Below the pieces are notes generated by a model. The model was not told the origin of the DNA. It searched no databases and worked only from the letters and a program-made list of their open reading frames with translations. Shown one piece after another: positions 6,907-34,926 of a DNA stretch of 34,927 nt. Position 1 is the stretch's first letter. Each line of letters opens with the position of its first letter. A program made the translations under genes and the position numbers. The stretch is from the NCBI GenBank assembly GCA_025934645.1, contig JAICWY010000020.1, positions 1 to 34,927 on the forward strand. Direction: 5' to 3'. Source of the DNA: Vulcanimicrobiia bacterium. GTDB taxonomy: Bacteria > Vulcanimicrobiota > Vulcanimicrobiia > Vulcanimicrobiales > Vulcanimicrobiaceae.

Positions 6907-7321
6907 CGGTGTGCCGGCCGACGCGCAAGCAGCAGAGTTTGAGATACAAAGCGACGCCGATGTCGTAAAAGTGCGGCAAGCCGCGCGGCAGCTCGCGCAA
7001 AAGGCCGCGCTTTCCATCGTAGACCAAACGAAGATCGTCACCGCCGTTAGCGAGTTGGCGCGCAACACGCTGATCCATGGCGGCGGGGGCACCGCGCAAG
7101 TAGAGATCGTCAAGAACGAGAAGCGCGTCGGCGTTCGCGCAGTCTTTATGGACGAAGGCCCCGGAATTGCAGACACAACGCGTGCGTTGTCCGGCGGCTT
7201 TAGCACCGGCGGCGGCTTGGGCTTGGGTCTCTCCGGCAGCCGCCGTTTGGTGGACGCATTCGATCTCGACACCGCACCGGGCCGCGGGACGCGCGTTACG
7301 GTGACGAAGTGGGCGCGTTAA
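6878..7321 (+). CDS. rsbT: RsbT, GHKL-type serine/threonine switch kinase
   Basis: A kinase of 147 residues from the anti-sigma/RsbT branch of the GHKL family. Visible ATP-site motifs are the N-box [13 protein letters not shown] (N63), the G1 box DEGPGI (92-97) and the G2 box [12 protein letters not shown] (113-124). In stressosomes RsbT phosphorylates RsbR and RsbS, leaves the complex, and then activates a PP2C phosphatase. Here two PP2C proteins are encoded downstream in the same operon, and the receiver-GAF-PP2C protein is the natural candidate target. The N-terminal 20 residues are an extension over Bacillus RsbT and come from the overlap with rsbS. Confidence 0.93.
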
Positions 7322-12920: not shown

Positions 12921-15314
12921 ATGAGAAACCCAATGCAGCTCGATCCGGCGATCGTCAAGCAGTTCCTGTACGCCGTGATCGTCGTCGATTCCGAAACGCA
13001 AGTCATACTCGATGCCAACGAGGCCGCCGTCCAACGGTACGGCTACTCGCGCGAACAGCTGCTTACCATGCGGATTACGGAATTGCGAGTGCCCGAGGAA
13101 AGCCATCTCGTCTCGCAGATCACCGAAGAGATGGCCGCCGCACCGGCGATTTTTGGTCCGTTCCGTCACCGGACCGCGACCGGCGAAGTCATCCGCACGG
13201 AAGTCGTTTCAATCCCCGGCGAAGTCGACGGCCGGCCGGCCATTGTCGCAATCCTGGCCGACGCGACGGAGCGCATCACCGCGCAGACCCGCGCGAATAT
13301 CCTATTCGATCGCATGCCCCTGGGCGCGTGGATTCACGATTGCGATACCTTCGAGATCTTGGCCGTGAACGATGCGGCGCTGGAGATCTACGGGTACTCG
13401 CGTGAAGAGATGCTCTCGATGACGCTGGATCAGTTCCGGCCGGACAAAGATCGCAGCGCGGTCGTGCGGCTGTTCCGCGATCATCCAACCGGCGATCTCA
13501 AAGGCCGCTACCGTCACGTCAAAAAGGACGGAACGATTATCGACGTTGAGGCGATCTCGACGCCCATTCCGTTCGGCCGAAGAAACGCACGGCTCGGTGC
13601 GGGACGGGACATCACGCAAGAATTGGCCGCGGAGCGCGCGCTCCAGCGAGCAAAATCAACGCTTGAAGAAGCGCAGGAAATCACCCACTTAGGCAACTGG
13701 CAGCACGATTTCCGAACTTGCGAGACGCGCCGTTCGCGCGAGCTGTGCCGCATTCTGGGCGTTCCCGAAGGTGAAGAAGCCATCACCATCGGCAGTTTGT
13801 ACGAATACGTGTATCCGGCCGACATCGATGCCGCGCGGGAGACCATCGAGTCAGCAAAGGCCGGCGAACTCGTGACGCTGGAGCATCGCATCGTTCGCGC
13901 CGACGGCGAAGTGCGCTGGGTCAGTTCACGCGCGCGAGTGCAACGCGATGCCATGGGGAATCTCATCAGCGCAACCGGCACCGTGCTCGATATCAACGAG
14001 CAAATGGCGCGAAACGACGAACTGCGCTTTCTCGCCTATCACGATCCGTTGACCGGCTTGCCGAACCGCCAGTCGATGAAAAGCATCTTGGATGCGGCCA
14101 TCGCGACAGGCTCAGCCGCCCTGTTTTTTATCGATTTTGACTCTTTCAAAGAAATCAACGACACGTTCGGTCATGCCGTGGGCGATGCGTTGCTGCAGCA
14201 GATCGCCTCGCGGCTCGAGGGAATGCAGGACGTCAAGACGTGCAGATGGGGCGGCGATGAATTCGTAGTCGTTGCGCCGTTGCGTGCAACGCAGTCGCAT
14301 GAAGACGCGCTCTTTCAAATCCGCACCGTACTCTCGGCATCGTACGATCACGGCGATCAGACGTTCTTTATCACGCCGAGCATCGGCATTGCGCTCTACC
14401 CGGAGCACGGCGATACCGCTGGCGAGCTCATACGCAACGCCGACACGGCCATGTACGAAGCGAAGCACATCAAAAATACCAGCGCGCTTTTCCGCTCTTC
14501 CATGGCGGACGCGGCCCGGCAGCGCCTGTACGTGCAGAACGGACTGCACGAAGCGTTGCGTTCGGACCATTTGAGGCTTTCGTTCCAGCCGGTCATTACC
14601 GCTTCAACCGGAAAAATCGCCGGCGCCGAAGCGCTGATCCGTTGGCACGATCCCGAGCGTGGCGTGCAGATGCCCGAAAGCTTCATCGGCATTGCCGAGA
14701 AGACAGGGCTGATCGGCTCGATTGGCGATTGGGTGGTGAGCGAGGCATGCCGCACGCTGCACTTGCTGCGCGAACAGAATATGCTGCTGCCGATCGCCGT
14801 GAACGTCGCCGCGCAGCAAATCGAGACGGGGCAGATCGTCGAATCGATCCGCAAATGGACCGCATTTTATGCCATCGACCCGGAGTCGCTGCACATTGAG
14901 GTTACGGAAAGCGGCATCATGGATGACGTTCCGCATGCCGTGGAGATTATGACGCATTTGCGCAAAACGGGCGTCCGTATCGCACTGGATGACTTCGGCG
15001 CGGGCTACAGCTCGCTCGCGCATCTCAAGAGTCTGCCGCTGGACGTCATGAAGATCGATAAGTCGCTCATCGCGGGGGTCGACTCCAATCCGCGCGATCG
15101 CCAGATAGTGCAGTCCGTGCTGCAGCTTGCAAAAGCGACCGATCTCTTCGTTATTGCCGAAGGCGTCGAGACGGCCGGGCAAGCGCGCGCGTTGCAATCA
15201 CTCGGCTGCGACACGCATCAGGGCTTTTATTTTAGCCCGCCGCTCTATCCGGACGATTTCTTCGAGTTCGTGCGCGCCGGCACACGTTTCGTATTCTATG
15301 AACGGCGCAGCTGA
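12921..15314 (+). CDS. PAS-PAS-PAS-GGDEF-EAL protein, bifunctional c-di-GMP enzyme
   Basis: A soluble c-di-GMP turnover protein with three PAS/PAC domains, a GGDEF domain and an EAL domain. The longest reading begins at TTG 12882 (810 residues), but ATG 12921 (797 residues) is preferred because PAS1 begins shortly after it. In the longer numbering the domains are PAS1 24-130, PAS2 137-247, PAS3 262-372, GGDEF 380-540 and EAL 550-805. Here the cyclase site is intact (RWGGDEF, 456-461) and so is the EAL site (EALIRW at 583, VNVAAQQI, EVTESGI, DDFGAGYSSL, MKID, AEGVET, QGFYFS). It has the same architecture as the 813-3290 protein, suggesting old paralogues of which only this one keeps both activities. 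Confidence 0.92.
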   Translation: MRNPMQLDPAIVKQFLYAVIVVDSETQVILDANEAAVQRYGYSREQLLTMRITELRVPEESHLVSQITEEMAAAPAIFGPFRHRTATGEVIRTEVVSIPGEVDGRPAIVAILADATERITAQTRANILFDRMPLGAWIHDCDTFEILAVNDAALEIYGYSREEMLSMTLDQFRPDKDRSAVVRLFRDHPTGDLKGRYRHVKKDGTIIDVEAISTPIPFGRRNARLGAGRDITQELAAERALQRAKSTLEEAQEITHLGNWQHDFRTCETRRSRELCRILGVPEGEEAITIGSLYEYVYPADIDAARETIESAKAGELVTLEHRIVRADGEVRWVSSRARVQRDAMGNLISATGTVLDINEQMARNDELRFLAYHDPLTGLPNRQSMKSILDAAIATGSAALFFIDFDSFKEINDTFGHAVGDALLQQIASRLEGMQDVKTCRWGGDEFVVVAPLRATQSHEDALFQIRTVLSASYDHGDQTFFITPSIGIALYPEHGDTAGELIRNADTAMYEAKHIKNTSALFRSSMADAARQRLYVQNGLHEALRSDHLRLSFQPVITASTGKIAGAEALIRWHDPERGVQMPESFIGIAEKTGLIGSIGDWVVSEACRTLHLLREQNMLLPIAVNVAAQQIETGQIVESIRKWTAFYAIDPESLHIEVTESGIMDDVPHAVEIMTHLRKTGVRIALDDFGAGYSSLAHLKSLPLDVMKIDKSLIAGVDSNPRDRQIVQSVLQLAKATDLFVIAEGVETAGQARALQSLGCDTHQGFYFSPPLYPDDFFEFVRAGTRFVFYERRS

Positions 15315-19188: not shown

Positions 19189-20064
19189 ATGCGCCGCTAC
19201 GCCTTTCTCGCGCTTGTGGTCCTCACGTTCGTGTGGGGCTACAACTGGGTTGTCATGAAGATCGCCGTGCAATACGCGCCGCCGATCGAGTTCGCGGCGT
19301 ACCGGCTGTTGGGCGGCGGCATCTTGCTTTTCATCATCATGATGGCGATGCGCCGGCCGCTGCGGCCGCGGTATTTGCGGCGCTTCATTCTCATCGGCGT
19401 TTTTCAGTCGGGCGGCTTCGTGGCGCTCGCGATGTGGGCCGTGCTTGCCGCGGGCGCCGGCAAAGTGGCCGTGCTTTCCTATACCATGCCGTTTTGGGTG
19501 GCGATTCTCGCATGGCCGATCTTCGGCGAGAAATTGCAGAAGCGGCAGATCGCGTCGATCGCGGTAGCCATGTGCGGCATTTTGCTGATTATGGATTTCC
19601 GGCACGCGAAAGGCTCGCTGGGTGCCGACGCTATTGCCGTCGCCGCAGGCGTCTCTTGGGCGATCGGCGTCATTCTGGCAAAGCGTTTGCAGATGCGTTA
19701 CGAAGTCGACGTGCTCGAGCTCACGACGTGGCAACTCATCTTCGGCGGCATCGCCGTGGGCATCGTGGCGCTCTTTGTGCCGGAGCACGCGACGCATTGG
19801 ACGCCGACGTATATCGGAGCGCTGCTCTACAACATCATCGCCGCGACCGCGCTCGGGTACTTGCTGTTCATCTTCGTGCTGCGCCAACTAACGGCGCGCG
19901 AAGCGAGCATGGGAACGTTGCTCAATCCAATCCTCGGCATCATCGCTGCATGGCTGCAGCTCGGCGAGGCGCCGTCGGCGATCGAAGCGATCGGAATGGG
20001 GCTGATCGTGCTCTCGTTAGCCGCGCTTACGCTGGAGCAACAGCGAGTTTCCGACAACGAATAG
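19189..20064 (+). CDS. EamA/DMT-family transporter
   Basis: An inner-membrane carrier of 291 residues with ten predicted helices in two EamA repeats (about 5-137 and 148-283). Repeat landmarks are VWGYNWVVMKIA at the start of the first, AAYRLLGGG in its second helix, and SYTMPFWVAILAWPIFGEKL at its end; the second repeat closes with LLNPILGIIAAWLQLGEAP. The family exports or exchanges small metabolites such as amino acids and nucleotide-related compounds; the substrate cannot be told here. The start ATG at 19189 fits the first helix well. The 3' end overlaps the convergent copA gene by 48 bases, encoding the polar tail. Confidence 0.9.
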   Translation: MRRYAFLALVVLTFVWGYNWVVMKIAVQYAPPIEFAAYRLLGGGILLFIIMMAMRRPLRPRYLRRFILIGVFQSGGFVALAMWAVLAAGAGKVAVLSYTMPFWVAILAWPIFGEKLQKRQIASIAVAMCGILLIMDFRHAKGSLGADAIAVAAGVSWAIGVILAKRLQMRYEVDVLELTTWQLIFGGIAVGIVALFVPEHATHWTPTYIGALLYNIIAATALGYLLFIFVLRQLTAREASMGTLLNPILGIIAAWLQLGEAPSAIEAIGMGLIVLSLAALTLEQQRVSDNE

Positions 20065-22170
20065 GCTCGATGCGCCCATCGCCGCGGCCGCAAGCATGGG
20101 ATGCACGATGCCGGCGGCCGCGAGCGGAACCAGCACGACGTTGTAGGCGAAGGCCCAAAACAGATTCTGACGGATCGTGCGCACCGTCGCACGCGAGAGC
20201 TCGATTCCCGACGCAACTGCGCGCGGATCGTTCGAAAGAATCGCGACGTGCGCGCTCTCCAGCGCGATCTCCGTTCCGCCGCCCATCGCAAGACCCACGT
20301 CCGCCGATGCGAGTGCCGGTGCGTCGTTGATACCGTCGCCGACAAATGCGACGCGCTCACCGCGCTTTTGCAATGACGTTACGACGGCCGCTTTTGCCTC
20401 CGGCGTAACGCGTGCGTGAAAGGTGCGCGCGTGCAATTCTTGCGCGAGCGCGCTCGTAGGCGCATCGGCATCGCCGCTGACGATTTCGACGCCGATGCCG
20501 TCGCGCTGCAAGCGCGAAACTGCCGCGGCAGCTTCCGGACGGGCAGTGTCGCCGAGATCGATCGCGCCCAGCAAAGCTGTACCGTCGCCGACGTATACGC
20601 GCGTGTGCGCGGACGCGGCGAGTCCATCGAGATGCATGCCGTGCGCGTTCATGAAAGCTTCGTTACCGGCATACAGCGTGCGATCGCCGACGCGGCCCTG
20701 CAAGCCCCGGCCGCGTTGCGCGAGCACCCCGCTCGCGCCGGTGACCGGCAATGCGCGATCGCGCGCGGCCGCGACGATCGCCGCCGCGAGCGGATGCGTT
20801 GAAGCCAGTTCCAAATTTGCGGCCGCGAGCAGGACATCGGCTTCGGTGCCGCTTGCCGCTGCGTGCACGGCGGTGACGCGCGGCTTGCCGGCCGTCAGCG
20901 TTCCGGTTTTATCGAAGAGCACGGTCGTGATTGCGCCGAGCCGTTCGATTGCATCCGCATCGCGGAACAGCAGCCCGCGCTTCGCGGCGGCGCCGACCGC
21001 AACCATAATCGCCGTCGGCGTCGCAAGCCCGAGCGCGCAGGGACATGCCACGACAAGCACCGCTACCGCGGCGGTTAGCGCGACGGGCCACGCGTGATGT
21101 GTGATGAACCAACCTGCGAACGTGAGCAGCGCGACGATCAAAATCGTTGGAACGAAAACCCCGGCAACTTTATCGGCAAGGCGCTGAACCGGCGGCGTGG
21201 TTCCTTGTGCGCGGCGCACGAGTTCGACGATCTTTGCAAGCGTCGTTCCCGCACCGATCGTTTCCGCGCGCACCGCCAGAGCGCCGTCACCGTTAAGCGT
21301 GCCTTGCTTTACGGGATCGCCGGCCTGCACGTTGACGGGAATGGGCTCGCCGGTAAGCATCGACGCATCGATGGCGCTCTCGCCTTCCAAGACGACGCCG
21401 TCGATCGGAATGCGCTCGCCCGCCGCGACCAGGAGCACGTCACCCACTCGCACGTCGTCAACGGAAATCTCTCGCACGCTGCCGTCGCTGCTGCGCAAGC
21501 GCGCCATGGGCGGACGCAAATCCAGCAGCGCTCGCACGGCGCGGTTGCTCTTGCCGCGCGCGGCCGCTTCCAGATATTTGCCGACGAACACAAGCGTCAC
21601 GATTGCGGACGCTGTTTCGTAATACGACGGCTGCATCGCGGCCGTCGCATAGATCGAATACCCGAATGCGGCGCTGGAGCCGAGCGAGACGAGCGTGTCC
21701 ATATTGCTCGTGCCGTGGCGCGCCGCTGCAATCGCCCCGCGATGGAACTCGCCGCCCACAATCAGCCACACCGGCAGCGTCAGCGCGAACATGACCCAAT
21801 CTTTGCCGGCGAACATGACCAGCGTCATACCGAGTACCACCGTCGGCACGAAGAGCGCGATTGCGAAGATCAGCAGCGCGCGCTTGCGCTGTATCTGTGC
21901 ATCGCGGCGCCGCGCATCCTCATCGCCGGTGGTATCGCGTACGGGTTCGGCGCCGTACCCGGCCCGCTCGACCGCGGCGATCAGCGCCGCCGTGTCGACT
22001 CCCGCCGCATGCTCGATGCTCGCACGCTCGGTGGCCAGGTTGACGGCAGCTTCGCTGACGCCGGGGACCTTTTTCAAGGCGCGCCCCACGTGGGCCACGC
22101 ACGAGGCGCAGGTCATGCCGGTGATGGCCAGTTCCGTCCGCGTTCCGGACGGCCGGGATGCGGCGATCAT
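20017..22170 (-). CDS. copA: Copper-exporting P1B-type ATPase
   Basis: A heavy-metal P-type ATPase of 717 residues with one N-terminal HMA domain (MTCASC, cysteines at 21 and 24). Counted from ATG 22170, TGE of the actuator loop is at 273-275, the transmembrane metal site CPC at 376-378, and the phosphorylated aspartate in DKTGT near 420. Further on are THPLA and GDGINDAPAL of the nucleotide and phosphorylation domains. YNxxL in the penultimate helix and MGASS in the last support the Cu(I) class, which pumps cytosolic copper outward. The ATG overlaps the copZ stop (ATGA), so chaperone and pump are translationally coupled; the longer open frame upstream is shadow of copZ. No regulator gene is adjacent. 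Confidence 0.95.
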   Translation of the reverse strand: MIAASRPSGTRTELAITGMTCASCVAHVGRALKKVPGVSEAAVNLATERASIEHAAGVDTAALIAAVERAGYGAEPVRDTTGDEDARRRDAQIQRKRALLIFAIALFVPTVVLGMTLVMFAGKDWVMFALTLPVWLIVGGEFHRGAIAAARHGTSNMDTLVSLGSSAAFGYSIYATAAMQPSYYETASAIVTLVFVGKYLEAAARGKSNRAVRALLDLRPPMARLRSSDGSVREISVDDVRVGDVLLVAAGERIPIDGVVLEGESAIDASMLTGEPIPVNVQAGDPVKQGTLNGDGALAVRAETIGAGTTLAKIVELVRRAQGTTPPVQRLADKVAGVFVPTILIVALLTFAGWFITHHAWPVALTAAVAVLVVACPCALGLATPTAIMVAVGAAAKRGLLFRDADAIERLGAITTVLFDKTGTLTAGKPRVTAVHAAASGTEADVLLAAANLELASTHPLAAAIVAAARDRALPVTGASGVLAQRGRGLQGRVGDRTLYAGNEAFMNAHGMHLDGLAASAHTRVYVGDGTALLGAIDLGDTARPEAAAAVSRLQRDGIGVEIVSGDADAPTSALAQELHARTFHARVTPEAKAAVVTSLQKRGERVAFVGDGINDAPALASADVGLAMGGGTEIALESAHVAILSNDPRAVASGIELSRATVRTIRQNLFWAFAYNVVLVPLAAAGIVHPMLAAAAMGASSLFVVGNSLLLQRKRG

Positions 22171-22367
22171 GCCAGTTCGTAACCTGCTTCGTCGAGCGCC
22201 GCGCTTAGTTCGCCTCGCGGCACCTCGCGCTCGGTTTCCAGCGTCGCCGAGTTGGACTCCAGGTCCACTTGGGCCGATTGCACTCCGGGCAAGGCGGCGA
22301 GCGCCTCGCGCACGTGGCGCACGCAATTTTGACACGTCATGCCGGTCACGCTTATGGTCTGTCTCAT
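22167..22367 (-). CDS. copZ: CopZ-like copper chaperone (single HMA domain)
   Basis: A protein of 66 residues, exactly one heavy-metal-associated domain. The metal motif is GMTCQNC near residues 9-15, followed by the usual helix VRHVREALAALPGV and the VDLESNSATL strand. It should bind Cu(I) in the cytosol and hand it to the HMA domain of the CopA pump encoded directly downstream with a four-base overlap. The promoter must lie in the 22368-22446 gap shared with the divergent S41 protease gene. I see no clear CueR- or CsoR-type operator there. Confidence 0.93.
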   Translation of the reverse strand: MRQTISVTGMTCQNCVRHVREALAALPGVQSAQVDLESNSATLETEREVPRGELSAALDEAGYELA

Positions 22368-25729: not shown

Positions 25730-26443
25730 GTGAACCGGATCGCCGTCTTCCTTGGCCCCTCGCTCCCAGCGGCGGAACGGATCGTACACCCGGCACTCAC
25801 CTACGTAAACCCGGCGGCGCGCGGCGACGTGGAGCGCGCCTCTCGCGAATTCGACGCGGTTTTGTTGATCGACGGCGTGTTCCATCAGGATCTCGCGCCG
25901 TCGCCGAAAGAAGTGTTCGCGGCGACGCAGCGATGCATCGTATTCGGCGCAGCCAGCATGGGCGCGCTGCGCGCGGCGGAGTGCTTTCCGTACGGTATGG
26001 TGCCGCTCGGCATCATCGCTCGCTGGTACATGCGCGGCGTCGTCGACGGCGACGACGAAGTCGCCGTGCTCGTCGATCCGCACACGCAAACCGCGCTTAC
26101 GGTACCGATGGTGAACGTGCGATATGCGCTGCGCATCGCGCGGCGCCGTCGACTCCTGAACCAAGCCCAATGCGAAGCGGTGTACGCAGGCGCGCGCGGC
26201 GTCTACTACATGGATCGCGGCTGGGACGATATCTTCGCGCTCGTGCCGCAGCGCGCGCAAAACGATTTTCGCGCGCTGGCGCACGAGAACGCGGATCTTA
26301 AACGGCACGATGCGCTGTTTGCGCTTCGGAGCGTGTTGCGCCGAACGCAATGGCGTAGTGAAAGTCGCCGCGGTCGATCGACCGAAGCACCGCGCCGGCC
26401 TGCTCGGCAAATCGCGAACGAATCTCCGGACGCCAAGCAGTAA
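25730..26443 (+). CDS. tfuA: TfuA-family protein, YcaO partner
   Basis: A TfuA-like core protein of about 237 residues. From GTG 25730 the family blocks are FLGPSLP (7-13), ARGD (30-33), LLIDGVFH (45-52), the hallmark GAASMGALRAAE (73-84), YGM (88-90) and DGDDEVAV (106-113), then VPMVNVRYALR. TfuA proteins work with YcaO enzymes in thioamide formation on peptide backbones (thioviridamide-type RiPPs and methyl-coenzyme M reductase) and were named from trifolitoxin synthesis. ATG 25667 and 25712 are alternative starts, but conserved sequence begins only after 25730. The C-terminal 35 residues are Arg/Ser-rich and overlap the convergent methyltransferase gene by 146 bases, an unusually long overlap. 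A ycaO gene lies 3.7 kb downstream on the same strand. Confidence 0.88.
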   Translation: MNRIAVFLGPSLPAAERIVHPALTYVNPAARGDVERASREFDAVLLIDGVFHQDLAPSPKEVFAATQRCIVFGAASMGALRAAECFPYGMVPLGIIARWYMRGVVDGDDEVAVLVDPHTQTALTVPMVNVRYALRIARRRRLLNQAQCEAVYAGARGVYYMDRGWDDIFALVPQRAQNDFRALAHENADLKRHDALFALRSVLRRTQWRSESRRGRSTEAPRRPARQIANESPDAKQ

Positions 26444-27056
26444 TGCGCAGATACGACGCGTACAGCCGTTTTGCAAAGGAGGCCGCCTCGGCGGTCGCAT
26501 CGAGCATTTCGACATCCGAAAAGTGCTCGAGCATCGCCGTGCGCGCCTGGTGCAAGCGGCCCTCGTGCCGGCCGTCGAGTGAAGGGGCGGTTATCACAAA
26601 GCGGCCGCCTTCGCGAAGTGCGCTGCGGATAACCGCGAGCAGCGAGGCCGCGAACTTTCCCGAAACCGCTACGTCGAGCGCGAACGCCGCCTCGAACTCC
26701 GGCTGAAAGGGATGCGTGCGGTAGTCCCCCTGCACGAACTGTGCCCCGGGACACTGCCGGCGTGCGGCGTCGATCGCTTCAGCAGCGCGATCTAGGCCGA
26801 ACGCTCTAGGTCCGTAGCCTCTGTGCTGCAGCCAGCGTTCCAAAAAACCGCGGCCGCAGCCGATGTCCACCACGCGCGGCCCGTGGCGTAAGTCCAGCCG
26901 GGCGCATATCCCGGCGAGCATTTCGTCGCTAACCAAACACAGGCGCCCGATACCGCTGCCGCAGCCCGCGGCCCGGGCGGCCTCGTCCAGCAACGCATCG
27001 CTGACGCCGCCGTGAAAGGCGCGGAATTGAGCTGCCACGACGACGTCTTCGAACAT
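26298..27056 (-). CDS. Class I SAM-dependent methyltransferase (first of two in the RiPP-like region)
   Basis: A protein of 252 residues from ATG 27056; the open frame continues upstream, but that part overlaps the divergent peptide gene and looks non-coding. Motif I is VVDIGCGRGFLERWL, followed by FGLDRAAEAIDAARR for the ribose-binding acidic strand and FVQGDY. A family-specific block SGIGRLCLVSDEML precedes motif I and is repeated nearly exactly in the second methyltransferase at 31382-32029, so the two are paralogues. The C-terminus (GDFHYAIAFG) also matches the partner (GAFNYTLLTG), supporting this frame through the overlap with tfuA. I infer methylation of the peptide product or of a small molecule linked to it; the acceptor is unknown. 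Confidence 0.85.
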   Translation of the reverse strand: MFEDVVVAAQFRAFHGGVSDALLDEAARAAGCGSGIGRLCLVSDEMLAGICARLDLRHGPRVVDIGCGRGFLERWLQHRGYGPRAFGLDRAAEAIDAARRQCPGAQFVQGDYRTHPFQPEFEAAFALDVAVSGKFAASLLAVIRSALREGGRFVITAPSLDGRHEGRLHQARTAMLEHFSDVEMLDATAEAASFAKRLYASYLRITAWRPEIRSRFAEQAGAVLRSIDRGDFHYAIAFGATRSEAQTAHRAV

Positions 27057-27127
27057 GCTGCCGATAAGGTTTCGCAAGAGGGCTTGCTGCGCCCCACAAC
27101 GCAACAGACCGTGAGCCGAACTTAGCC

Positions 27128-27134
27128 GGAGGAG
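27128..27134 (+). promoter_or_regulatory. Strong ribosome binding site for the peptide gene
   Basis: GGAGGAG seven bases before ATG 27142 is one of the strongest Shine-Dalgarno sites in the window and argues that this short gene is expressed. Confidence 0.8.
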
Positions 27135-27141
27135 AACAACC

Positions 27142-27411
27142 ATGGCCCTCGAGCCGCATGAGGAACCCGAAGTCGGCGAACAATTCCTGGACATGCTTGC
27201 GCGGGATGCGGAGGTCCGCCGGCGTTACCTCGACGCGGGCGACGATGAGGAAGCAGTCGCGAAAGTGATTGCCGAGCATACCGGCCGCGACGTGGAGGCG
27301 AAGAACCTCGCCGGTATGGCAAAGCATCTTTCGGAGAACAGAGCGGATCAGTGCAACGAACTGGCCGCCATGTATCCGGAGATGAATTTGGTCGTCGTTA
27401 GTACGACGTAG
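27142..27411 (+). CDS. Candidate RiPP precursor peptide with Nif11-like leader
   Basis: A peptide of 89 residues. Residues 11-63 follow the Nif11/NHLP leader pattern: an aromatic-Leu helix (QFLDMLARDAEVRRRYL), an acidic turn, an AVAKVIAEHTGRDV helix with the Gly seen before the last helix, and NLAGMAKHL. Such leaders recruit RiPP-modifying enzymes. The remaining 64-89 would hold the core: one Cys (C71), a Tyr-Pro-Glu-Met segment, and a hydrophobic end VVVSTT. There is no double-glycine cleavage site. The gene sits between tfuA and ycaO, is divergent from a methyltransferase gene, and converges with 14 bases of overlap on the regulator gene. It could instead be a small Nif11-like protein that is not processed. 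Confidence 0.72.
   Translation: MALEPHEEPEVGEQFLDMLARDAEVRRRYLDAGDDEEAVAKVIAEHTGRDVEAKNLAGMAKHLSENRADQCNELAAMYPEMNLVVVSTT
27393..27408. repeat. Hairpin at the shared 3' end of the peptide and regulator genes
   Basis: CGTCGT (27393-27398) and ACGACG (27403-27408) form a perfect six-base stem with a four-base loop. It lies inside the last codons of the peptide gene (encoding VVSTT) and across the stop of the convergent regulator gene. It may slow or end transcription from both sides, although no T-run follows. Confidence 0.4.
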
Positions 27412-30103
27412 TCTGCTCCGAATCGTTTTCGAACAACCAGCGCATCAGTTTGACGCGCGATTCGAGGTGCAGCTTGTCGAACACGTTTCCAAGGTGCCGC
27501 TCGACCGTGCGTTCGCTGAGCACCAAACTCTCCGCGATCTCGCGGTTCGACTTTCCGTCGCCTACGAGCCGGGCCACCTGGAGCTCGCGCGCGGTTAATC
27601 CGTGCGCGTGACGAGGTGCGCGCGCCCCCGTCAAGTCGGCTAATCTAATCCGTTTCAACAGCGCCAAATCCTCAGGGCGCGGCGCGCCGGCCTTATAAGC
27701 GGCATACGCGGCGAAGAAGTCCGCCGAAAGCGTGCGCGCCTGTGCGGCGGCTTGCGCTAACACGGAGGAAGCTCGGGTATTCTTAAGTGCGAGAAGCGCG
27801 ATCCCGCGGGCCAACGTCCATTGCATCGTGGTCCAGGGCGAGCGGTCTTTGAATGTTTCGGTGACCGCAAACATCTCGAGCCAAGACGTTTTTCCGGCGC
27901 GCTGCGCGTACAGTGCAACACCGAACGGCACGAAACCAATTGAAAATGGCGCAGGCGGATGCTCCGGCAGATCGAACACGACGCGCTCCAGTCGCCGCTC
28001 CATGTCGCGGTCGCGCTTGCGCAACAGCATCCACGGCACGAGTTGCAGCACAGCCTCGGGTGTGTCCAAAATATCACTGCCTCCGTCCCGTTCGGCTTCC
28101 GTCTGCGCGGCGGCGGAGAGACTGTCCAGCATGGCAGTTATCGCGCGCTGATGAACCTGCACGTGCGACGTATCGTCGGCGAAAAACGATTCCGACACGA
28201 GCTGCCGGCTCAGCTCCCAGTCACCTTTCGCGATCGCCACCCAAGCGCGGAAGATGCTGCCGAAATCGTGCTCTTTTCCCTCGACGCGGTTATTCGCAAG
28301 CCATCCGGGAAGGCGATTCTCGGCGATCGTGCAGCCCTCGTGCCGGAAGTGTAAAAGCAGCTTCGTAAAGCCCAGCGTGTCGCCTTGGCGCCGCGTGTGG
28401 TCCGCGAAAGAAATCGCTTTTTCGATTTCGGCGATTGCCTGATCGAACTCGCCGTGCGCGGAATGATAGAACGCCATCGCGCCGTGCAATCCCGCGCGTC
28501 CGTAGTTCGATAGGCCGGAATCAACGGACGGCAATTTTTTCCGTTCCGCCTCAAACGCCGCATCGTCGAACGCCATGGCGGTCGTGTTCATGGCCAATAC
28601 GATTGCGTCCGCGCGATCCGCGTCGCTTTGCAGCGTCGGGTAAAACGTCTCGTACGCGTCGATCGCCTCACGGTATTGCGCGCGCGCCAGAAACGACGCC
28701 ATGAGCATTGACAATAAAGCGCCAACGCCTTGCGTGATGCCGGAAGTCCGCGCTTTGGTAAGCGCTGAAGCCAGAACGTTGGACGCTAATTCATCCCGGC
28801 TATCCGATCGCAGCGCCATTGTGTATTGCGTATAGAATTGCACGAAATGGCGGCTGTCGATCTCCGAAATTGCTAGGGCGCGTTCGCACGCGTTAATCGC
28901 TGCGGTCCAAGACCGCGCTGTAAAGGCGCGGCTGCTCAAATCGTACAGCGTGTCCAGGGCCAATTGCTTGTCGCCGGCCGCCAATGCATGCGCCGCGAGA
29001 CGATCCAGGTCGGCAAGGGTTGGTTCCGTGAGGCTTTGCAAGGCCGCTATAATGCGTCGGCGCAGCGGTACGTCGAACGTAACGGTGGTCAAGATGGCTT
29101 CGGCTACCAAAGAATGCCGGAAGCGCAGTGCCGGCCCTTCCGGCATGAGATATGGCCGGGCGCTTCCGCTCACCAGCATTGCCACTTCGCTCGGCGTGTA
29201 GAGCGCGAAGAGCATGCGATATTCGATCGGATCGCCGAGAAGCGAACACAATTGCAAGAACTCGCGTTCGTCGGACTGCAGTGAAAGGACGCGATTGGCG
29301 ATCACGTTGCGAACGCGGTTGTCACCCGCCGTCTCGGATACTCCGGCGGAGCCGGCGGCAAGTTCTTCACACAGCGTTAGAATATCGAACGCATTCCCGT
29401 TTCCATGGTGGACGAGCGTTTCCAGCGATATTGCATCGAGCTGCGGGTAACGCGATAGCGCGAACGCCTCGGATTGCTCGGGATCGAACCGTTCCAGAAC
29501 GATCGTCCCCGAATGCGCGGGGGACTGCGCGCCTGCATCGAGCCGCTCGGCAAAGATCAGCGCCACGGAACTCGTCGCGGCATTCGCAGCGAATGCGTTT
29601 AACACGTCCAGGGATTCCGCATCGATCCATTGCGCGTCGTCACACGCAATCAGAATCTTGTGATCCGTTCCTATTCCATCGAAGAAACGAAGAAAAATCT
29701 CTTGATAGCGATTCTTGTCGATGGCCGCGGGCGCCGGCTTATCGAAAAGCAGCGCAATTTTGGAATCGAGCATGGCGAGGCCGCTCTCGAGTCCGCTGGT
29801 GTACCGCGCGCCGTCGTTGCCGAGCGATCGAAGCGCGGCTAAGACGAGGCGGTTCGCCGTGACAAACGGCGTATGGCGCTGGATCTCATGGCACCCGGTG
29901 GCGATCGTCAACCACCCGCGGCGCGCCATCTCCTCAACGAGATGCTCTAAAAAAGCCGTCTTCCCGATACCGGGTTCGCCGGCGATGCGCAAAACCGCCG
30001 GCACCGACGTGCCTTCGGATCTCTCGAGCGCTTTATAGGCCAGCGCCAACTCTCGATCCCGGCCAAAGAGCCCGGAGCCGTCGGCTGCCCAAAGGTTTCT
30101 CAG
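27398..30103 (-). CDS. Large LuxR-family ATP-dependent transcription regulator (LAL/MalT-like)
   Basis: A regulator of about 900 residues: an N-terminal AAA/NACHT-like ATPase, a long helical TPR-like middle, and a C-terminal LuxR-type helix-turn-helix in the last 65 residues (GLTARELQVARLVGDG, then SNREIAESL and ERTVERHL). Walker A is GEPGIGKT and Walker B KILIACDD. The first ATG/GTG/TTG in frame is TTG 30049, but the family's GRxxEL box (LFGRDRELALAY) starts upstream of it. CTG 30103 includes this box and is preceded at seven bases by GAGGA, so I take it as the start. Regulators of this type often control adjacent biosynthetic clusters, and this one is divergent from ycaO. The inducer is unknown. 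Confidence 0.88.
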   Translation of the reverse strand: MRNLWAADGSGLFGRDRELALAYKALERSEGTSVPAVLRIAGEPGIGKTAFLEHLVEEMARRGWLTIATGCHEIQRHTPFVTANRLVLAALRSLGNDGARYTSGLESGLAMLDSKIALLFDKPAPAAIDKNRYQEIFLRFFDGIGTDHKILIACDDAQWIDAESLDVLNAFAANAATSSVALIFAERLDAGAQSPAHSGTIVLERFDPEQSEAFALSRYPQLDAISLETLVHHGNGNAFDILTLCEELAAGSAGVSETAGDNRVRNVIANRVLSLQSDEREFLQLCSLLGDPIEYRMLFALYTPSEVAMLVSGSARPYLMPEGPALRFRHSLVAEAILTTVTFDVPLRRRIIAALQSLTEPTLADLDRLAAHALAAGDKQLALDTLYDLSSRAFTARSWTAAINACERALAISEIDSRHFVQFYTQYTMALRSDSRDELASNVLASALTKARTSGITQGVGALLSMLMASFLARAQYREAIDAYETFYPTLQSDADRADAIVLAMNTTAMAFDDAAFEAERKKLPSVDSGLSNYGRAGLHGAMAFYHSAHGEFDQAIAEIEKAISFADHTRRQGDTLGFTKLLLHFRHEGCTIAENRLPGWLANNRVEGKEHDFGSIFRAWVAIAKGDWELSRQLVSESFFADDTSHVQVHQRAITAMLDSLSAAAQTEAERDGGSDILDTPEAVLQLVPWMLLRKRDRDMERRLERVVFDLPEHPPAPFSIGFVPFGVALYAQRAGKTSWLEMFAVTETFKDRSPWTTMQWTLARGIALLALKNTRASSVLAQAAAQARTLSADFFAAYAAYKAGAPRPEDLALLKRIRLADLTGARAPRHAHGLTARELQVARLVGDGKSNREIAESLVLSERTVERHLGNVFDKLHLESRVKLMRWLFENDSEQTTSY

Positions 30104-30110
30104 GAAGCGG

Positions 30111-30115
30111 TCCTC
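30111..30115 (-). promoter_or_regulatory. Ribosome binding site supporting a CTG start of the regulator
   Basis: GAGGA on the minus strand lies seven bases before CTG 30103. No ATG, GTG or TTG is in frame between here and the upstream limit of the conserved sequence. Confidence 0.45.
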
Positions 30116-30138
30116 ATAGAAACGAACGAAGAAGATGA

Positions 30139-31398
30139 GTGGACGAATTACCCGCGTTATCCCGAGCCGACCTGCTTCGCCGGGCCGTTCCGCTTGAAGT
30201 GACTCTGGCGCATGCCGGTGCGGTACAGGCGCGGTACGGCATCACGCGAGTCGCCGAAACAACGCATTTGGACCGCGTCGGCATCCCGGTCATCAACGTG
30301 ATCGTTCCGAGCTCGCCGGATGCGATCGGCGTGTATAACGGTAAAGGACTAACCAAAGCACATGCGGTCGTCAGCGGGTTGATGGAGGCGCTGGAGCGCC
30401 AGATCTGCGCGCGTTGCGAACTCGAGCGCTTTTCCGCATCCGTCGATGAAATACGCGCATACCTCGATCTCCCGGCGCTTGGGTGGATCGGCCCGAACGA
30501 AGCGGAGATCGAATGCGTAACGGGCGTCGATCTGCTGAGCGGCGAGCAGATCGCGGTACCGCTCGGAGTGGTGCAGTGCCCGCGAACCGGTCCGCTGCAT
30601 TTCGCGCGCGTCTCAACCAATGGTCTTGCCTCGGGCAACAATGCGACCGAAGCGGTTTTGCACGCGCTGCTCGAACTGTGCGAGCGGCATCTGTGGTCGC
30701 GCGTGCACGTCCTTGCGCACATGTGGCCACGCTCATTGCGCGCGCGCACCGGCGACCTTTCGGATCGGCCGGATGATGCAATCGCAAATGAAATCATCAT
30801 GACGCAGCAGACTCCGGTTATCGGCGAACTGGCCGAACAGATCCGGCGTGCCGGCTTGGGGCTGCGCTTACTGTGTTATGCGCACGGTAAATGGCCCGTT
30901 GCGATGCTCGCATGCATCGTGGATTCGGGCGGCGGCGGAATGTTCTATCACCTTGGCATGGGCTGTTCGTGGTCGCCGCTTCATGCGGCGGCGCGCGCGA
31001 TTACCGAGGCTGCGCAGGTGCGGCTCGGCGATATTTCGGGCGCGCGGGAAGATCTGCGCCATGCGAGTGCGGCCGTTACCGGTTTCGAACATGGCAGCCG
31101 GCCTGCGGCATTTCCCACGGGACGCTGGTATTTCGATGGGCCTGCGCAGCCTATCGCTTTCGATGACTTGCCGGATCGCTCGGGTGCCGGTCTCGAACAG
31201 GAAGTTGCGATGATTCTCGACGTGCTGCGAGGTTTTGGCGAGCGGTGCGTGCCCTATGTGGACTTAAGTCCGGCGAACGCGCCGGGAATAAGCGTCGCGC
31301 GCGTCATCGCGCCGTCACTGGAACGCACGCTCGTAGACGGCTCGCTTTCACGCCGGTCATCGGCGTTGTTATCGGCGCCGCTTACACCGTTCCGGTGA
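30139..31398 (+). CDS. ycaO: YcaO-domain ATP-dependent cyclodehydratase/thioamide synthetase
   Basis: A stand-alone YcaO protein of 419 residues. ATP/Mg-site features of the fold are visible: YNGKG (66-70) with SGLMEALE (79-86), the block STNGLASGNNATEAVLHALL (159-178) with ELCER after it, and ITEAAQVR (288-295). YcaO enzymes phosphorylate a backbone amide oxygen to make azolines or, with TfuA and a sulfur source, thioamides. No partner E1/ThiF-like or RRE domain is fused or encoded next to it, and the C-terminus (SAPLTPFR) is not the PxPxP tail of azoline-forming homologues; both points favour the thioamide branch. GTG 30139 is the start. It is divergent from the regulator gene and overlaps the convergent second methyltransferase gene by 17 bases. 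Confidence 0.92.
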   Translation: MDELPALSRADLLRRAVPLEVTLAHAGAVQARYGITRVAETTHLDRVGIPVINVIVPSSPDAIGVYNGKGLTKAHAVVSGLMEALERQICARCELERFSASVDEIRAYLDLPALGWIGPNEAEIECVTGVDLLSGEQIAVPLGVVQCPRTGPLHFARVSTNGLASGNNATEAVLHALLELCERHLWSRVHVLAHMWPRSLRARTGDLSDRPDDAIANEIIMTQQTPVIGELAEQIRRAGLGLRLLCYAHGKWPVAMLACIVDSGGGGMFYHLGMGCSWSPLHAAARAITEAAQVRLGDISGAREDLRHASAAVTGFEHGSRPAAFPTGRWYFDGPAQPIAFDDLPDRSGAGLEQEVAMILDVLRGFGERCVPYVDLSPANAPGISVARVIAPSLERTLVDGSLSRRSSALLSAPLTPFR

Positions 31399-32029
31399 GC
31401 AGCGTGTAATTGAAGGCGCCGGCCTCGACGGCATGCAGCATTCGCGCGGCCTCGTTTAGGACGTGGGCTTTTACCGGCGCGTCCCACCGGCCCATCAACA
31501 TCGCCGAATACAGCGTTGCTGCAAATTCGCGCACCTGCTGCGTGAGATCGGCGACGCTAACGCTCGCGCCCTGCCGTTGCAGGCGCGCGCAAGAGCGCGA
31601 CACTTTTTCCGGGTGCGTGTCGTCGAACGATGCGAGCGTAACGACGTACTGCCCGCCGGGCGCCAGGTTCTGCGCGATGCATTTGGCAAGCGCGACCGGG
31701 ATGATGGGCGCTTCAAGGGCGAAAACGCGTTCGAATTTCGGCCCTTCGGCCGGAACGGCGGCGGCAGCGGAGTCCACGCCGACGTACCTGCAGCTCAACG
31801 AATTCCAAAGAAGCCAGCGTCCCAAAAATCCTCGCCCACACCCGATATCCAGGACAGCCGACTTCGCCGGAATCCCGACCGTTTCGACCACCTTCGCCAG
31901 CATTTGGTCGTCCAGCAGGCAGAGACGCCCGATCCCCGAGGGCAGCCCGCAACGCCGGGCATAGCAGTCTAGCACGCGGTCTCCCGCGTACCGGTAAAGT
32001 CCCCGGCGTCCGGCTGCAAGCATAGCCAT
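31382..32029 (-). CDS. Class I SAM-dependent methyltransferase (second, paralogous)
   Basis: A protein of 215 residues with the shared block SGIGRLCLLDDQMLA directly before motif I (VLDIGCGRGFLGRWL), then YVGVDSAAAA for the second strand. It is shorter than the first methyltransferase in its acceptor part and lacks the clear QGDY block. Residues after about 100 contain PGGQYVVTLASFDDTH, the expected strand region. The C-terminus (GAFNYTLLTGTV) parallels the other copy. Two related methyltransferases at the borders of one cluster suggest two methylations of one product, or a heteromeric pair in which this smaller copy might be regulatory. ATG 32029 is the only good start. Confidence 0.83.
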   Translation of the reverse strand: MAMLAAGRRGLYRYAGDRVLDCYARRCGLPSGIGRLCLLDDQMLAKVVETVGIPAKSAVLDIGCGRGFLGRWLLWNSLSCRYVGVDSAAAAVPAEGPKFERVFALEAPIIPVALAKCIAQNLAPGGQYVVTLASFDDTHPEKVSRSCARLQRQGASVSVADLTQQVREFAATLYSAMLMGRWDAPVKAHVLNEAARMLHAVEAGAFNYTLLTGTV

Positions 32030-32082: not shown

Positions 32083-32400
32083 CTACGACGCGACGTGTTC
32101 GAAAAAGCGAAGCTGCGTGGAGGACGCAAGCAACTTCAGCCCGGATGGAATGCCGGCGTGAGAGTCATGGTATTGGTGGCTCTTATGCCAGGCACAATAC
32201 GCCTCGCGATCGCGCCAGTAGGTCAGCAGCCACATTTCGCGCAGATTTTCTTCCGGCCGGATGACGTCCAGCCGAACGAATCCGTCGGCCTGCTCTACCA
32301 AATGCGGCCGCTCAACGAATGCTTGCCGAACGGCTTCAGCCATTTCCTCGGTTCGAACCTCGAACTTGCTGAGCGCAACAAAAAGCGGCGAACTATTCAC
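32083..32400 (-). CDS. Antibiotic-biosynthesis-monooxygenase (ABM) fold protein
   Basis: A protein of 105 residues, the usual size of a dimeric ferredoxin-like ABM protein. Landmarks are LFVALSKFEV in the first strand, a helix with EEMAEAVRQAFVERP, GFVRLDVIRP, and the W/H-rich block WLLTYWRDREAYCAWH, then SHAGIPSGLKL and a final RFFEHVAS. Relatives include IsdG/HmoB haem-degrading enzymes and quinone monooxygenases; the histidines would allow haem binding but this is not shown. The start is GTG 32400, overlapping the PP2C stop as GTGA, so it is translationally coupled to the phosphatase. The longer open frame upstream is shadow of that gene. Confidence 0.82.
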   Translation of the reverse strand: MNSSPLFVALSKFEVRTEEMAEAVRQAFVERPHLVEQADGFVRLDVIRPEENLREMWLLTYWRDREAYCAWHKSHQYHDSHAGIPSGLKLLASSTQLRFFEHVAS

Positions 32401-33962
32401 TGCACATGCACCTGAAGGACGGCAATATCGTCGAGCGGATCGGAGCCTTCCAGCACGAGCTCTACCAATCTGCTCACGCTCATTTGCGCGCTTTGGCCGG
32501 CCACGCCGCATTTCGCCGCTGCAGTAATCAACCGCGTCAAGCCGTCGTCGAAATTGCGGGTCGCTTCTACCAGGCCGTCGGTGTAAAAGATGACGCGGTC
32601 GCCATGCTGTAATGCGGCACTGCGCAACTGAGGTCCGCTCGCTCCGGCGATGTCGAGGCCGAGCGGCGTTCCGCCCCAATCCAATAGTGTGGCCGTGCCG
32701 TTGCGTACGAGTACGGGCGGCGGATGTCCCGCGATGGCGTATAAGAGCTCGAGTTTCGTCGCATTAAAGCGAGCGTATATTGCCGTAGCTAGGTCGTTCT
32801 CATATGCCAAGAAATGGTGGAGGCGGGATAGCACTTCAACGGGGTCCGGACTATTGAGCCCTGCGACGCGGACGGCAGCGCGAATTTTCGCCATCGTCGT
32901 TGCAGCCTGTAGTCCGTGACCTGTGACGTCGCCGATTGATACTTCGACTTCATCGTCGCGCAACACAAAGGCATCGTACCAATCGCCGCCGATGAAACGC
33001 GGCCCTTCAGAGCTGACAATGTACGTTGCCCCGAGCTCGAACAACGCCGATGAGGGCAAGGTTTCGGGAAGCGCAGCGCGCTGCAATTGCTCAGATACCG
33101 ACCGCTCTGCCTGGTACCGTATCGCGTTATCGAGTGCGACCGAAACAATATTCGAAAATTGCTCCGCTAGGGCACGCTCATCGTCACCGTACGGTATTTC
33201 ATCGCGGCCGAAACAAATCTCGCCCAAGCGATCGTTTCGCAGATGCAGCGGTACGGAAATCGTGCGGTTCGTGCGTTCGGCGATGTCCGCACTCACCGTT
33301 TCGGTTTTGCGCCGCAACGATACCACGCCGCCGTCTCCGGCGAGATGGAATACCCTCGCGATCGGCGCGCTCAACGCACCGCGGAACTCGATGCCGGCAT
33401 AGTTTCCAAGGACCGGAATAGCCTCTGTTAACGCCTCACGTATTAATGCTTCAACGTCCCCGATATTTTGCGCACACGCAGTGGCCGAACGCGCCAAAAA
33501 CCGCAAGCGCGACTGACTGACGTGCGCTTCATCTAAACTGCGGCGTTCGGCCTCTACGGCGGTGCGCAGCATCTTCGCGTTTTGCGCCGCCTGACGGTGG
33601 GCGACGCTGAGCTCGTTGATGATGCCGCTGAGGCTGTCGTAACTTTCCTCGCGCGGCGACGCCACGGAGCCCGGCACCGCCACGATAAGAACATCGTCTC
33701 CAGCGATTACGCCGCACAAGCGAACCGGCTTGGGTTCTTCGCCATCAGACTGAAGATGCAGGCTCCAGTCGAATGCCGCCGCTCGTATAAGAATGTTTTC
33801 CCAGAAGGCGGCTGCCTTTGCGCGCGAGAGACCGTCAAACAATTCGAAAAAGGTTGTTGTGCGCGCGTCCTTTCGCGCGTGGCCCAACGACAGTAATCGT
33901 ACCGGACGGCCGGCACGGTCGTAAAAGCAAACGAAGTTCTCGCGGCACGCCAGGGCTTGCAT
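32397..33962 (-). CDS. Sensor-GAF-PP2C (RsbU/RsbP-like) phosphatase
   Basis: A protein of about 521 residues. An N-terminal PAS-like domain (about 1-110) is followed by a coiled coil (HRQAAQNAKMLRTAVEAERR), a GAF domain (about 155-300) and a SpoIIE/PP2C domain (about 315-521) with GGDWYDAF, IGDVTGHGLQAA, YTDGLVE and the closing DDIAVLQV, the full metal-binding set. Such phosphatases activate STAS antagonists in partner-switching pathways. TTG 33974 is the furthest start, but ATG 33962 lies one base after the stop of the upstream cobalamin-binding gene and fits coupled translation, so it is preferred. It is the third PP2C phosphatase in the window and has a different input from the stressosome pair. 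Confidence 0.9.
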   Translation of the reverse strand: MQALACRENFVCFYDRAGRPVRLLSLGHARKDARTTTFFELFDGLSRAKAAAFWENILIRAAAFDWSLHLQSDGEEPKPVRLCGVIAGDDVLIVAVPGSVASPREESYDSLSGIINELSVAHRQAAQNAKMLRTAVEAERRSLDEAHVSQSRLRFLARSATACAQNIGDVEALIREALTEAIPVLGNYAGIEFRGALSAPIARVFHLAGDGGVVSLRRKTETVSADIAERTNRTISVPLHLRNDRLGEICFGRDEIPYGDDERALAEQFSNIVSVALDNAIRYQAERSVSEQLQRAALPETLPSSALFELGATYIVSSEGPRFIGGDWYDAFVLRDDEVEVSIGDVTGHGLQAATTMAKIRAAVRVAGLNSPDPVEVLSRLHHFLAYENDLATAIYARFNATKLELLYAIAGHPPPVLVRNGTATLLDWGGTPLGLDIAGASGPQLRSAALQHGDRVIFYTDGLVEATRNFDDGLTRLITAAAKCGVAGQSAQMSVSRLVELVLEGSDPLDDIAVLQVHVQ

Positions 33963-33963
33963 A

Positions 33964-34926
33964 TCAGGCTCCAAGCCGCGACATCAAGTCGGGCAATTCG
34001 GCCGCGTTCCGTGCAAAACCGTCGGCGCCGATGTTCTTCCAGAGATCGGGACTCATGCGAAACGGGAGCCCGCCAACGATAATTTTTACCGGCAGCATCG
34101 ATTTGCGAACCGCATCGATGATTTCACGCACGCGTTGCACGTGAAACGTCATCGTCGCGGAGATTGCGAGTACGTCGGCTTTTTCACGAACTATTAAGCG
34201 AATGATATCGGCAGCCGGGGTATTCGCGCCGACGTAAATAGAGCTCCAGCCTTCCATTTCCAGGAAGTCGCAGACGATTCGAAGCCCGATCTCGTGCAGC
34301 TCGCCCGAAACGCATATTGCTACTACGCATTTATTGCATGGCGCAGCAACCGTGAGATAGTCATATAGCCGCGCGATAATGCTTTGCGTGGCTGCGGTAC
34401 AGTAATGTTCCTGGCCGACGCTAATGGCATTCGTTTGCCACAATCTGCCGATTTCGTATTGAACGCGTTCAAAGACGCCGAGGTACAGATCGCGGATGCT
34501 TACGCCTTCGTCAAGTGCGCGGATGACGAGTGAATACGCCGAGGAGCGATCCATGCGCAGAAGCGCCGCAAGATAGGTTCGAGCGAGCTCGTCGATTGGC
34601 GCATCGCCATCCAGGTGCGACGGCTGCGCGGAGATTTCTCCCTGCGTAAGCGCGTCAATGCCGGCCTGCAAAAAATCTGCTGCTTTCGTGGCTTCCCCGT
34701 CCGAGAGGCGGCGTGCAACCAGCGGCGCGGCTAAGCGCAGATTCGTAAGGAGATGCTCGCGGCCGATATTGCGCGACTCAAGCAAAACCGCGGCCCAGCG
34801 CAGGTATGCGACAAAGAGGCCCGCGTCCGACGCGCGCAGCGCCTCCGATAAAAAGGAGAGAAGATATGACGCGTCTTCCTTACACCGCTGTACGCCGGCC
34901 TCGCCGTAACGTTTCCAGAGTTCCGG
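33964..34926 (-). CDS. Cobalamin-binding photoreceptor-type protein (5' end outside window)
   Basis: The open frame continues past TTG 34785 to the window edge with coding-like sequence (PELWKRYGEAG, then YLRWAAVLLES), so the real start is outside. The downstream part has a helical bundle containing W at 34438-34440, nine residues, then Glu-His at 34405-34410: the W-x9-EH motif that marks CarH/LitR-type adenosylcobalamin light sensors. A B12-binding Rossmann domain follows with ELHEIG, the DxHxxG-type motif carrying the cobalt-ligand histidine (first residue Glu, as in photoreceptors), and VGANTP and VGGLPF loops. No DNA-binding domain is visible in the part seen. It is directly coupled to the PP2C gene, so I infer a light- or B12-dependent input to that phosphatase. 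Confidence 0.88.
   Translation of the reverse strand, partial: PELWKRYGEAGVQRCKEDASYLLSFLSEALRASDAGLFVAYLRWAAVLLESRNIGREHLLTNLRLAAPLVARRLSDGEATKAADFLQAGIDALTQGEISAQPSHLDGDAPIDELARTYLAALLRMDRSSAYSLVIRALDEGVSIRDLYLGVFERVQYEIGRLWQTNAISVGQEHYCTAATQSIIARLYDYLTVAAPCNKCVVAICVSGELHEIGLRIVCDFLEMEGWSSIYVGANTPAADIIRLIVREKADVLAISATMTFHVQRVREIIDAVRKSMLPVKIIVGGLPFRMSPDLWKNIGADGFARNAAELPDLMSRLGA

Follow-up and report, generated by a model that had tools for sequence, protein, structure and literature searches.

Does the gene neighborhood at positions 25730 to 32029 of contig JAICWY010000020.1, from a Vulcanimicrobiia bacterium (assembly GCA_025934645.1), direct the synthesis of a thioamidated peptide? The stretch analyzed (34,927 nucleotides, hereafter the window) carries tfuA, ycaO and a small peptide gene in this neighborhood, and comes from a draft genome of 2.64 Mb in 157 contigs that is 85% complete and belongs to the phylum Candidatus Eremiobacterota, for which NCBI uses the name Vulcanimicrobiota. 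We conclude that the locus is very probably a cluster for a thioamidated ribosomally synthesized and post-translationally modified peptide (RiPP), representing a new, order-specific variant of the TfuA/YcaO RiPPs that turned up in this analysis in a single order of Eremiobacterota only. A previous reading of the letters alone (the sequence-only reading) had proposed a RiPP cluster of the TfuA/YcaO kind that encodes a genuine precursor, and this proposal was supported by profile searches, the ratio of nonsynonymous to synonymous substitution rates (dN/dS) and conserved synteny. Pfam searches and a check of the sequence placed all six genes where that reading had put them, as follows.

25730..26443, plus strand: tfuA, GTG start (PF07812, E = 7.9e-32, Pfam cut-off passed)
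26298..27056, minus strand: methyltransferase 1, intact class I S-adenosylmethionine (SAM) fold (PF13649, E = 6e-11)
27142..27411, plus strand: putative precursor peptide of 89 amino acids (aa), predicted helical leader of ~77 residues, core ending in MNLVVVSTT
27398 to ~30049, minus strand: LuxR-type AAA regulator (AAA_16, E = 4.4e-17; GerE, E = 8.1e-17)
30139..31398, plus strand: ycaO, GTG start (PF02624, E = 5.8e-49)
31382..32029, minus strand: methyltransferase 2, shortened and probably degenerate paralogue (PF13649, 26.0 bits against a 27-bit cut-off)

TfuA and YcaO are both encoded intact, and the large regulator carries the AAA_16 and GerE domains of the LuxR-ATPase that had been described. 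Divergent intergenic regions of 85 bp (27057-27141) and 89 bp (30050-30138) precede the peptide gene and ycaO, respectively. The genes lie on alternating strands and not in one operon, as would be expected if they were chance neighbors and the open reading frame (ORF) of the peptide were not a gene. The peptide ORF is preceded by GGAGG 9 bases upstream of its ATG, and a Shine-Dalgarno-like word, loosely defined, was found within 20 bases upstream of 31 of the 33 family copies. The window peptide matched no curated Pfam or NCBIfam family at cut-off. A first search with it gave weak matches (E = 0.6 and worse), ten of which adjoined a LuxR gene, and a profile built from those ten peptides recovered peptides in almost every relative locus. 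An independent profile, seeded from one distant member (L054) and run for four rounds with no window sequence in training, retrieved 32 ORFs, each beside a cluster ycaO or regulator gene; the window peptide was the top-scoring ORF of the window at 47.3 bits (E = 6.9e-13). With an earlier leave-window-out profile, it scored 27.5 bits against a best score of 8.0 among 1000 shuffles. For seven peptides of one genus, the leader gave a dN/dS of 0.088 and the core one of 0.08. Because of the E-value from the L054-seeded profile and the dN/dS of ~0.09 in that genus, the 89-residue peptide is not a chance ORF and is a real gene, as had been claimed.

The precursor family was present in 28 of the 149 genomes of the phylum, namely all 26 with a close TfuA and two (G063 and G071) in which ycaO is cut by a contig end, and a YcaO match was found in all 28 (147 genomes searched). 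Synteny in relatives, which had been named beforehand as the test of the proposal, was observed. Pairwise divergence ran parallel between the cluster genes. Of the six gene pairs compared, the LuxR-ATPase and the precursor were the most closely correlated (r = 0.90 in 23 loci), and for none of the pairs did any of 999 permutations match the value observed; shared ancestry contributes to these correlations. A chance neighborhood, which is refuted by the conserved gene sets in 28 genomes together with the dN/dS of 0.09 (one genus), the profile E-value and the parallel divergence, is barely conceivable.

We assigned the peptide family to RiPP precursors because some of its members carry tandem C-terminal cores: L037:10097-10564 has five DAPSHVGxxFVVQ-type units, of which the first differs in its lead-in, and L050:3144-3518 has two cores. 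Such a natural multi-core member is suited to locating the modified residue. Besides its five-core precursor, the L037 locus contains a single-core one at 14065-14355 and a pair of ycaO genes. Related motifs, for example HVGLVFLMQQ or TVGFFVLMQH, are found at the end of many single-core members, and VG or AG occurs in the last 16 residues of 22 of the 33 precursor copies. The window core MNLVVVSTT forms a sub-type without glycine together with MNFIIVTTA and MNLIIFTTR of its relatives. The window peptide is 49% and 33% identical to its two closest relatives and ~20% or less to the other members. Tandem precursor genes were also seen, two in L171:11064-11785 and three in L057:8367-9451, and a further precursor copy lies on another contig at G062:C4:2298-2579. 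No member of the family was found in the distant-TfuA loci (47 loci and L031-L033); the one strong hit among them, L080, proved to be an Eremiobacterota locus already counted as L056. In viral contigs, a search able to show close relatives only found no relative of the peptide.

AlphaFold2 modeled the window peptide at a predicted local distance difference test (pLDDT) score of 81, with helices up to residue 77 and pLDDT below 50 at residues 86-89, so that the precursor is predicted to have a leader folded into helices, followed by an unstructured C-terminal core that is short and hydrophobic. Foldseek returned no match to this fold in the PDB at E = 0.001 or better. With five helices and pLDDT values mostly in the 80s, the small protein could also be read as a folded accessory subunit of YcaO/TfuA, the enzymes acting on another protein as E. 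coli YcaO does on uL16. Standalone YcaO enzymes that modify proteins are described in the consulted text of PMC13063428, and in the one genus where selection was estimated, purifying selection acts as strongly on the core as on the leader. The tandem C-terminal motifs (five in L037, two in L050), however, suit a precursor and not a subunit, as do the tandem precursor genes of L057 and L171, and the last residues are of low confidence and without predicted structure. In addition, TfuA is not found near the suspected uL16-type YcaO genes according to the same text, and we consider an accessory subunit unlikely. Under the precursor reading, the core dN/dS of 0.08 indicates that the product is conserved in that genus, a conservation that speaks for a role in physiology and against an arms race.

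The sequence-only reading had further assigned a Nif11-like leader to the 89-residue peptide; the peptide was confirmed, whereas the label was weakened. The window peptide scored 13.4 bits with PF07862 (E = 0.096), below the Pfam cut-off of 23.8, and an E-value of 0.1 or less was obtained for 2 of 27 family members, the best at 0.0089. Profile-profile comparison by hhalign with nine Nif11 peptides from the same phylum gave a weak match (probability 32%, P = 4.8e-4, 54 columns). The family thus shares with Nif11 precursors a helical leader of similar layout and a weak profile similarity but lies under the Pfam cut-off and has different cores, and there is no GG cleavage motif in the window peptide sequence. 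No C39 peptidase (PF03412) was found in the 85% complete source genome. In a genome from another taxonomic family of the phylum, a true Nif11 precursor with a GG motif is located between ycaO and tfuA (L033:8585-8872, G005:C3).

For both TfuA and YcaO of the window, the best NCBIfam models were those for McrA-glycine thioamidation, with scores under the curated cut-offs (TfuA with NF033432, 160.8 bits against 235.2; YcaO with TIGR03266, 183 bits against 365). The YcaO aligned with MJ1094 (6PE3, E = 3.7e-33), and a sequence search against solved structures showed the TfuA to resemble 6XP8. The ATP-binding Glu and Gln of YcaO were kept in all 27 cluster sequences, the window protein having SGLME, HALLELCE and EAAQ. 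The Met, His and Ala residues reported as preferred in TfuA-associated YcaO proteins in the main text of PMC8120280 were, in our own mapping of these positions onto the alignment, found in 25, 26 and 21 of the 27 sequences, respectively, and all three are present in the window YcaO. A thioamide product of TfuA and YcaO would fit the enzyme scores, the likeness to MJ1094 and those cores that lack Ser, Thr and Cys. YcaO proteins in general are also capable of forming azolines or macroamidines, and the window core does have Ser and Thr. The YcaO is here partnered by TfuA and has McrA-type scores, no E1-like or dehydrogenase partner was found among the ten window genes scanned, and its tail has no PxPxP motif. 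That 11 of 31 single-core precursors (the two multi-core copies excluded) have no Cys, Ser or Thr among their last nine residues argues against azolines as the general product, and YcaO chemistry of the azoline or macroamidine type appears very unlikely for this cluster.

We next considered how far the thioamide-type gene set is conserved. TfuA was found in 29 of the 149 genomes, 26 of one clade and three distant (G122, G132 and G005; 28-41% identity), and identities of 54-63% to the window TfuA were obtained for 25 relatives within the phylum. In a further scan, which may leave out records very close to the genome of the window, 21 TfuA loci at 55-63% identity were from metagenome-assembled genomes, assigned to Candidatus Eremiobacterota where classified, and the other 47 (30-47%) belonged to a mixed set of organisms that included Streptomyces, cyanobacteria, rhizobia and archaea. 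We compared the regions around TfuA of the 28 genomes besides that of the window and eight further ycaO or cluster regions, across which YcaO, the LuxR-ATPase and the small peptide recurred. The gene order and strands of the window, including both methyltransferases but without tfuA, were found in G086 (L170) and G058 (L171), the latter differing by a second precursor and one extra gene. These two loci also have the YcaO proteins closest to that of the window (60% in L170 and 57% in L171), LuxR-ATPases of 38% and 39% identity and the closest peptides. Three genomes from a second family of the same taxonomic order (L040, L045 and L051) have the LuxR gene between ycaO and tfuA, with one methyltransferase beyond ycaO in L040 and L045. 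A single open frame of 652-714 codons, in which tfuA continues into ycaO, is present in 11 of the 26 genomes of the clade.

The two paralogous methyltransferases that had been described, which are 31-33% identical, turned out to be one intact enzyme and one gapped copy. Methyltransferase 1 was modeled at pLDDT 92, its best PDB matches are small-molecule methyltransferases that do not name its substrate, and its counterparts are 48% (L171) and 37% (L170) identical. Methyltransferase 2 matched only positions 1-42 of the 97 of PF13649, under the cut-off. It has 215 residues against 243 in its L170 counterpart; relative to that protein, a stretch of the SAM fold is missing, the alignment showing gaps of 19, 3 and 2 residues. 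The glycine-rich first SAM motif is lost in the L171 counterpart. Judged by these sequences, methyltransferase 2 is probably a degenerate paralogue, and it may be a non-catalytic partner. Among the 28 genomes, the locus methyltransferase was of the window type in five (window included) and of a different type in 17.

Several observations weigh against a thioamidated RiPP cluster as the explanation of this locus. Most of the 28 genomes matched by the family profile had also contributed sequences to its training, so that its informative result is the absence of the family from the other 121; the independent test is the L054-seeded profile. The core glycine of most members is missing from the window peptide. 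The cluster contigs of G086 and G058 do not include tfuA, which is located on a different contig in each; in G058, tfuA and the cluster are both near contig ends, so a gap of a few kb is possible. The window TfuA is not closest to the TfuA proteins of these two genomes, whereas its YcaO, LuxR-ATPase and peptide are closest to theirs, and tfuA may therefore have its own history in this sub-group. No methyltransferase was detected in the locus of the remaining six of the 28 genomes. No protease, exporter or RiPP recognition element (RRE) was found among the ten window genes scanned, for which no dedicated RRE model was run. In the window, tfuA and ycaO are 3.7 kb apart with three genes between them and so are not adjacent; adjacency is usual in the TfuA/YcaO class but is no requirement of the chemistry. 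A second locus of G086 (L175:6321-7840, G086:C57) has a family precursor of 105 residues immediately followed by a ycaO, and a long ORF upstream on the opposite strand that reads as regulator-like; within the 14 kb read around it, no match to tfuA or the LuxR-ATPase was found, and the absence of tfuA there counts on the same side.

In the pathway that we propose, the leader would bring the core to YcaO, which would activate a backbone amide with ATP, and TfuA would deliver sulfur, probably from a ThiS-like thiocarboxylate carrier, to give one or more backbone thioamides. In the consulted text of PMC13063428 (2026), TfuA is described as a hydrolase aiding the transfer of sulfide equivalents from a thiocarboxylated ThiS-like carrier, and two ThiS-family matches were found in the source genome. 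Methyltransferase 1, perhaps in complex with its degenerate paralogue, would methylate the product, and the leader would be removed by a general protease. The convergent LuxR-ATPase would control the cluster and may sense its product.

The LuxR-ATPase gene is convergent with the precursor gene in 25 of the 28 genomes, with 3' ends 2-130 bases apart and a 14-base overlap in the window. In L044 and L052, the convergent gene encodes another large regulator, the two forming one BLAST cluster and the L044 copy having HTH and AAA domains, and the precursor of G056 is cut off by the end of its contig. In the main locus, the precursor is thus convergent with a large regulator in all 27 assessable genomes; a convergent regulator is absent only from the second precursor locus of G086 (L175). 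This pairing, like the multi-core precursor and the tfuA on a separate contig in the two closest relatives, became visible through comparison with relatives and had therefore escaped the sequence-only reading. The source genome holds seven matches to the window LuxR-ATPase, of which only the window copy is full-length. Its open frame of 947 codons extends upstream of the TTG through 30050-30138, and because GRDREL in this upstream part resembles the start of the L170 copy, translation probably begins within the stretch that also contains the ycaO promoter. Just past methyltransferase 1, at L170:12-1628, lies another copy of the LuxR-ATPase, with 40% identity across residues 1-539.

This pairing raises the possibility of cell-to-cell signaling, in which a released thioamidated (and methylated) peptide would re-enter cells and be bound by the convergent LuxR-ATPase; we put this forward tentatively, as an idea of low probability. 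In the RRNPP systems of Gram-positive bacteria, a peptide gene is likewise paired with a regulator. The present regulator is of a different class, and sensing is here only hypothesized. If it were true, the cluster would encode a peptide pheromone of a little-cultured phylum, with a thioamide RiPP as the signal and a MalT-like regulator as the sensor, and such a signal could be tested directly, given that precursor and regulator are constantly paired. As a route of import, we considered an OPT transporter, for which a gene lies no more than ~10 kb from the cluster, on its contig, in at least 7 of the 28 genomes (G033, G034, G087, G088, G096, G097 and G098). This was suggestive in the three genera concerned, but OPT occurs in 117 of the 149 genomes and was not found in the source genome. 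Oligopeptide-type binding proteins (SBP_bac_5) are encoded beside the cluster at L040:3629-5194, L045:2290-3930, L048:14115-15821 and L051:14131-15558.

Among known systems, the cluster is similar in composition to the TfuA-related thioamidated RiPP clusters surveyed by Malit et al. (2021, PMC8120280), the main text of which describes TfuA and YcaO with a nearby precursor, in some cases fused tfuA-ycaO genes or Nif11-related precursors, and clusters of known thioamidated peptides that, as here, have no transporters. Those clusters are mostly from Proteobacteria and Actinobacteria with tfuA adjoining ycaO, and their Nif11-like precursors carry the GG cleavage motif that the window peptide lacks. 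Eremiobacter, WPS-2 and LuxR are not mentioned in that main text, and the present locus adds a phylum unnamed there. The thiovarsolin cluster (Santos-Aberturas et al. 2019, PMC6511847) is described as having YcaO and TfuA act on a precursor with up to five repeats and, like the window, as having no specific protease. It differs in being actinobacterial, in its APR cores and in its partners, which are heme-oxygenase-like, ATP-grasp and amidinotransferase proteins; LuxR and methyltransferase are not mentioned in the consulted text. An ocean survey describes RiPPs of marine Eremiobacterota (PMC9259500), and a term search of its available text found no mention of TfuA, thioamid or YcaO.

The solved relatives found by sequence for the two enzymes (6PE3/6PEU, 6CI7/6CIB and 6XP8) belong to the McrA-glycine thioamidation YcaO/TfuA system of methanogens, whose models were also the nearest in NCBIfam. 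The substrate there is a large enzyme and not a short precursor, and the window proteins fall under the curated cut-offs. No paper naming TfuA together with this phylum was found in the literature searched, which left most subscription journals and supplements outside. The gene set had been called undescribed, and we likewise found no counterpart in that literature; the cluster adds a precursor family undetected by the Pfam and NCBIfam models.

Outside the six genes, 12 other window genes had only scattered matches of 28-32% beside the clusters of relatives: five loci had a match to a P-type ATPase, two to an alcohol dehydrogenase-like gene and one to a SpoIIE gene. An ORF at 20017-22335, ~3.4 kb from tfuA, reads as a heavy-metal P-type ATPase. 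A copper link through this ORF was rejected, since the only ATPase matches in the relatives' loci, presumably Kdp, were 29-32% identical and confined to one genus (five genomes). A monooxygenase-like gene at 32083-32397 (PF03992) was likewise rejected as a tailoring enzyme, its counterpart being absent from the loci of relatives. Signaling-type ORFs were seen at 7309-11668 and 32397-34926, reading as phosphatase-, histidine-kinase- and B12-binding-like, and Pfam identified the SpoIIE gene at 32397-33974.

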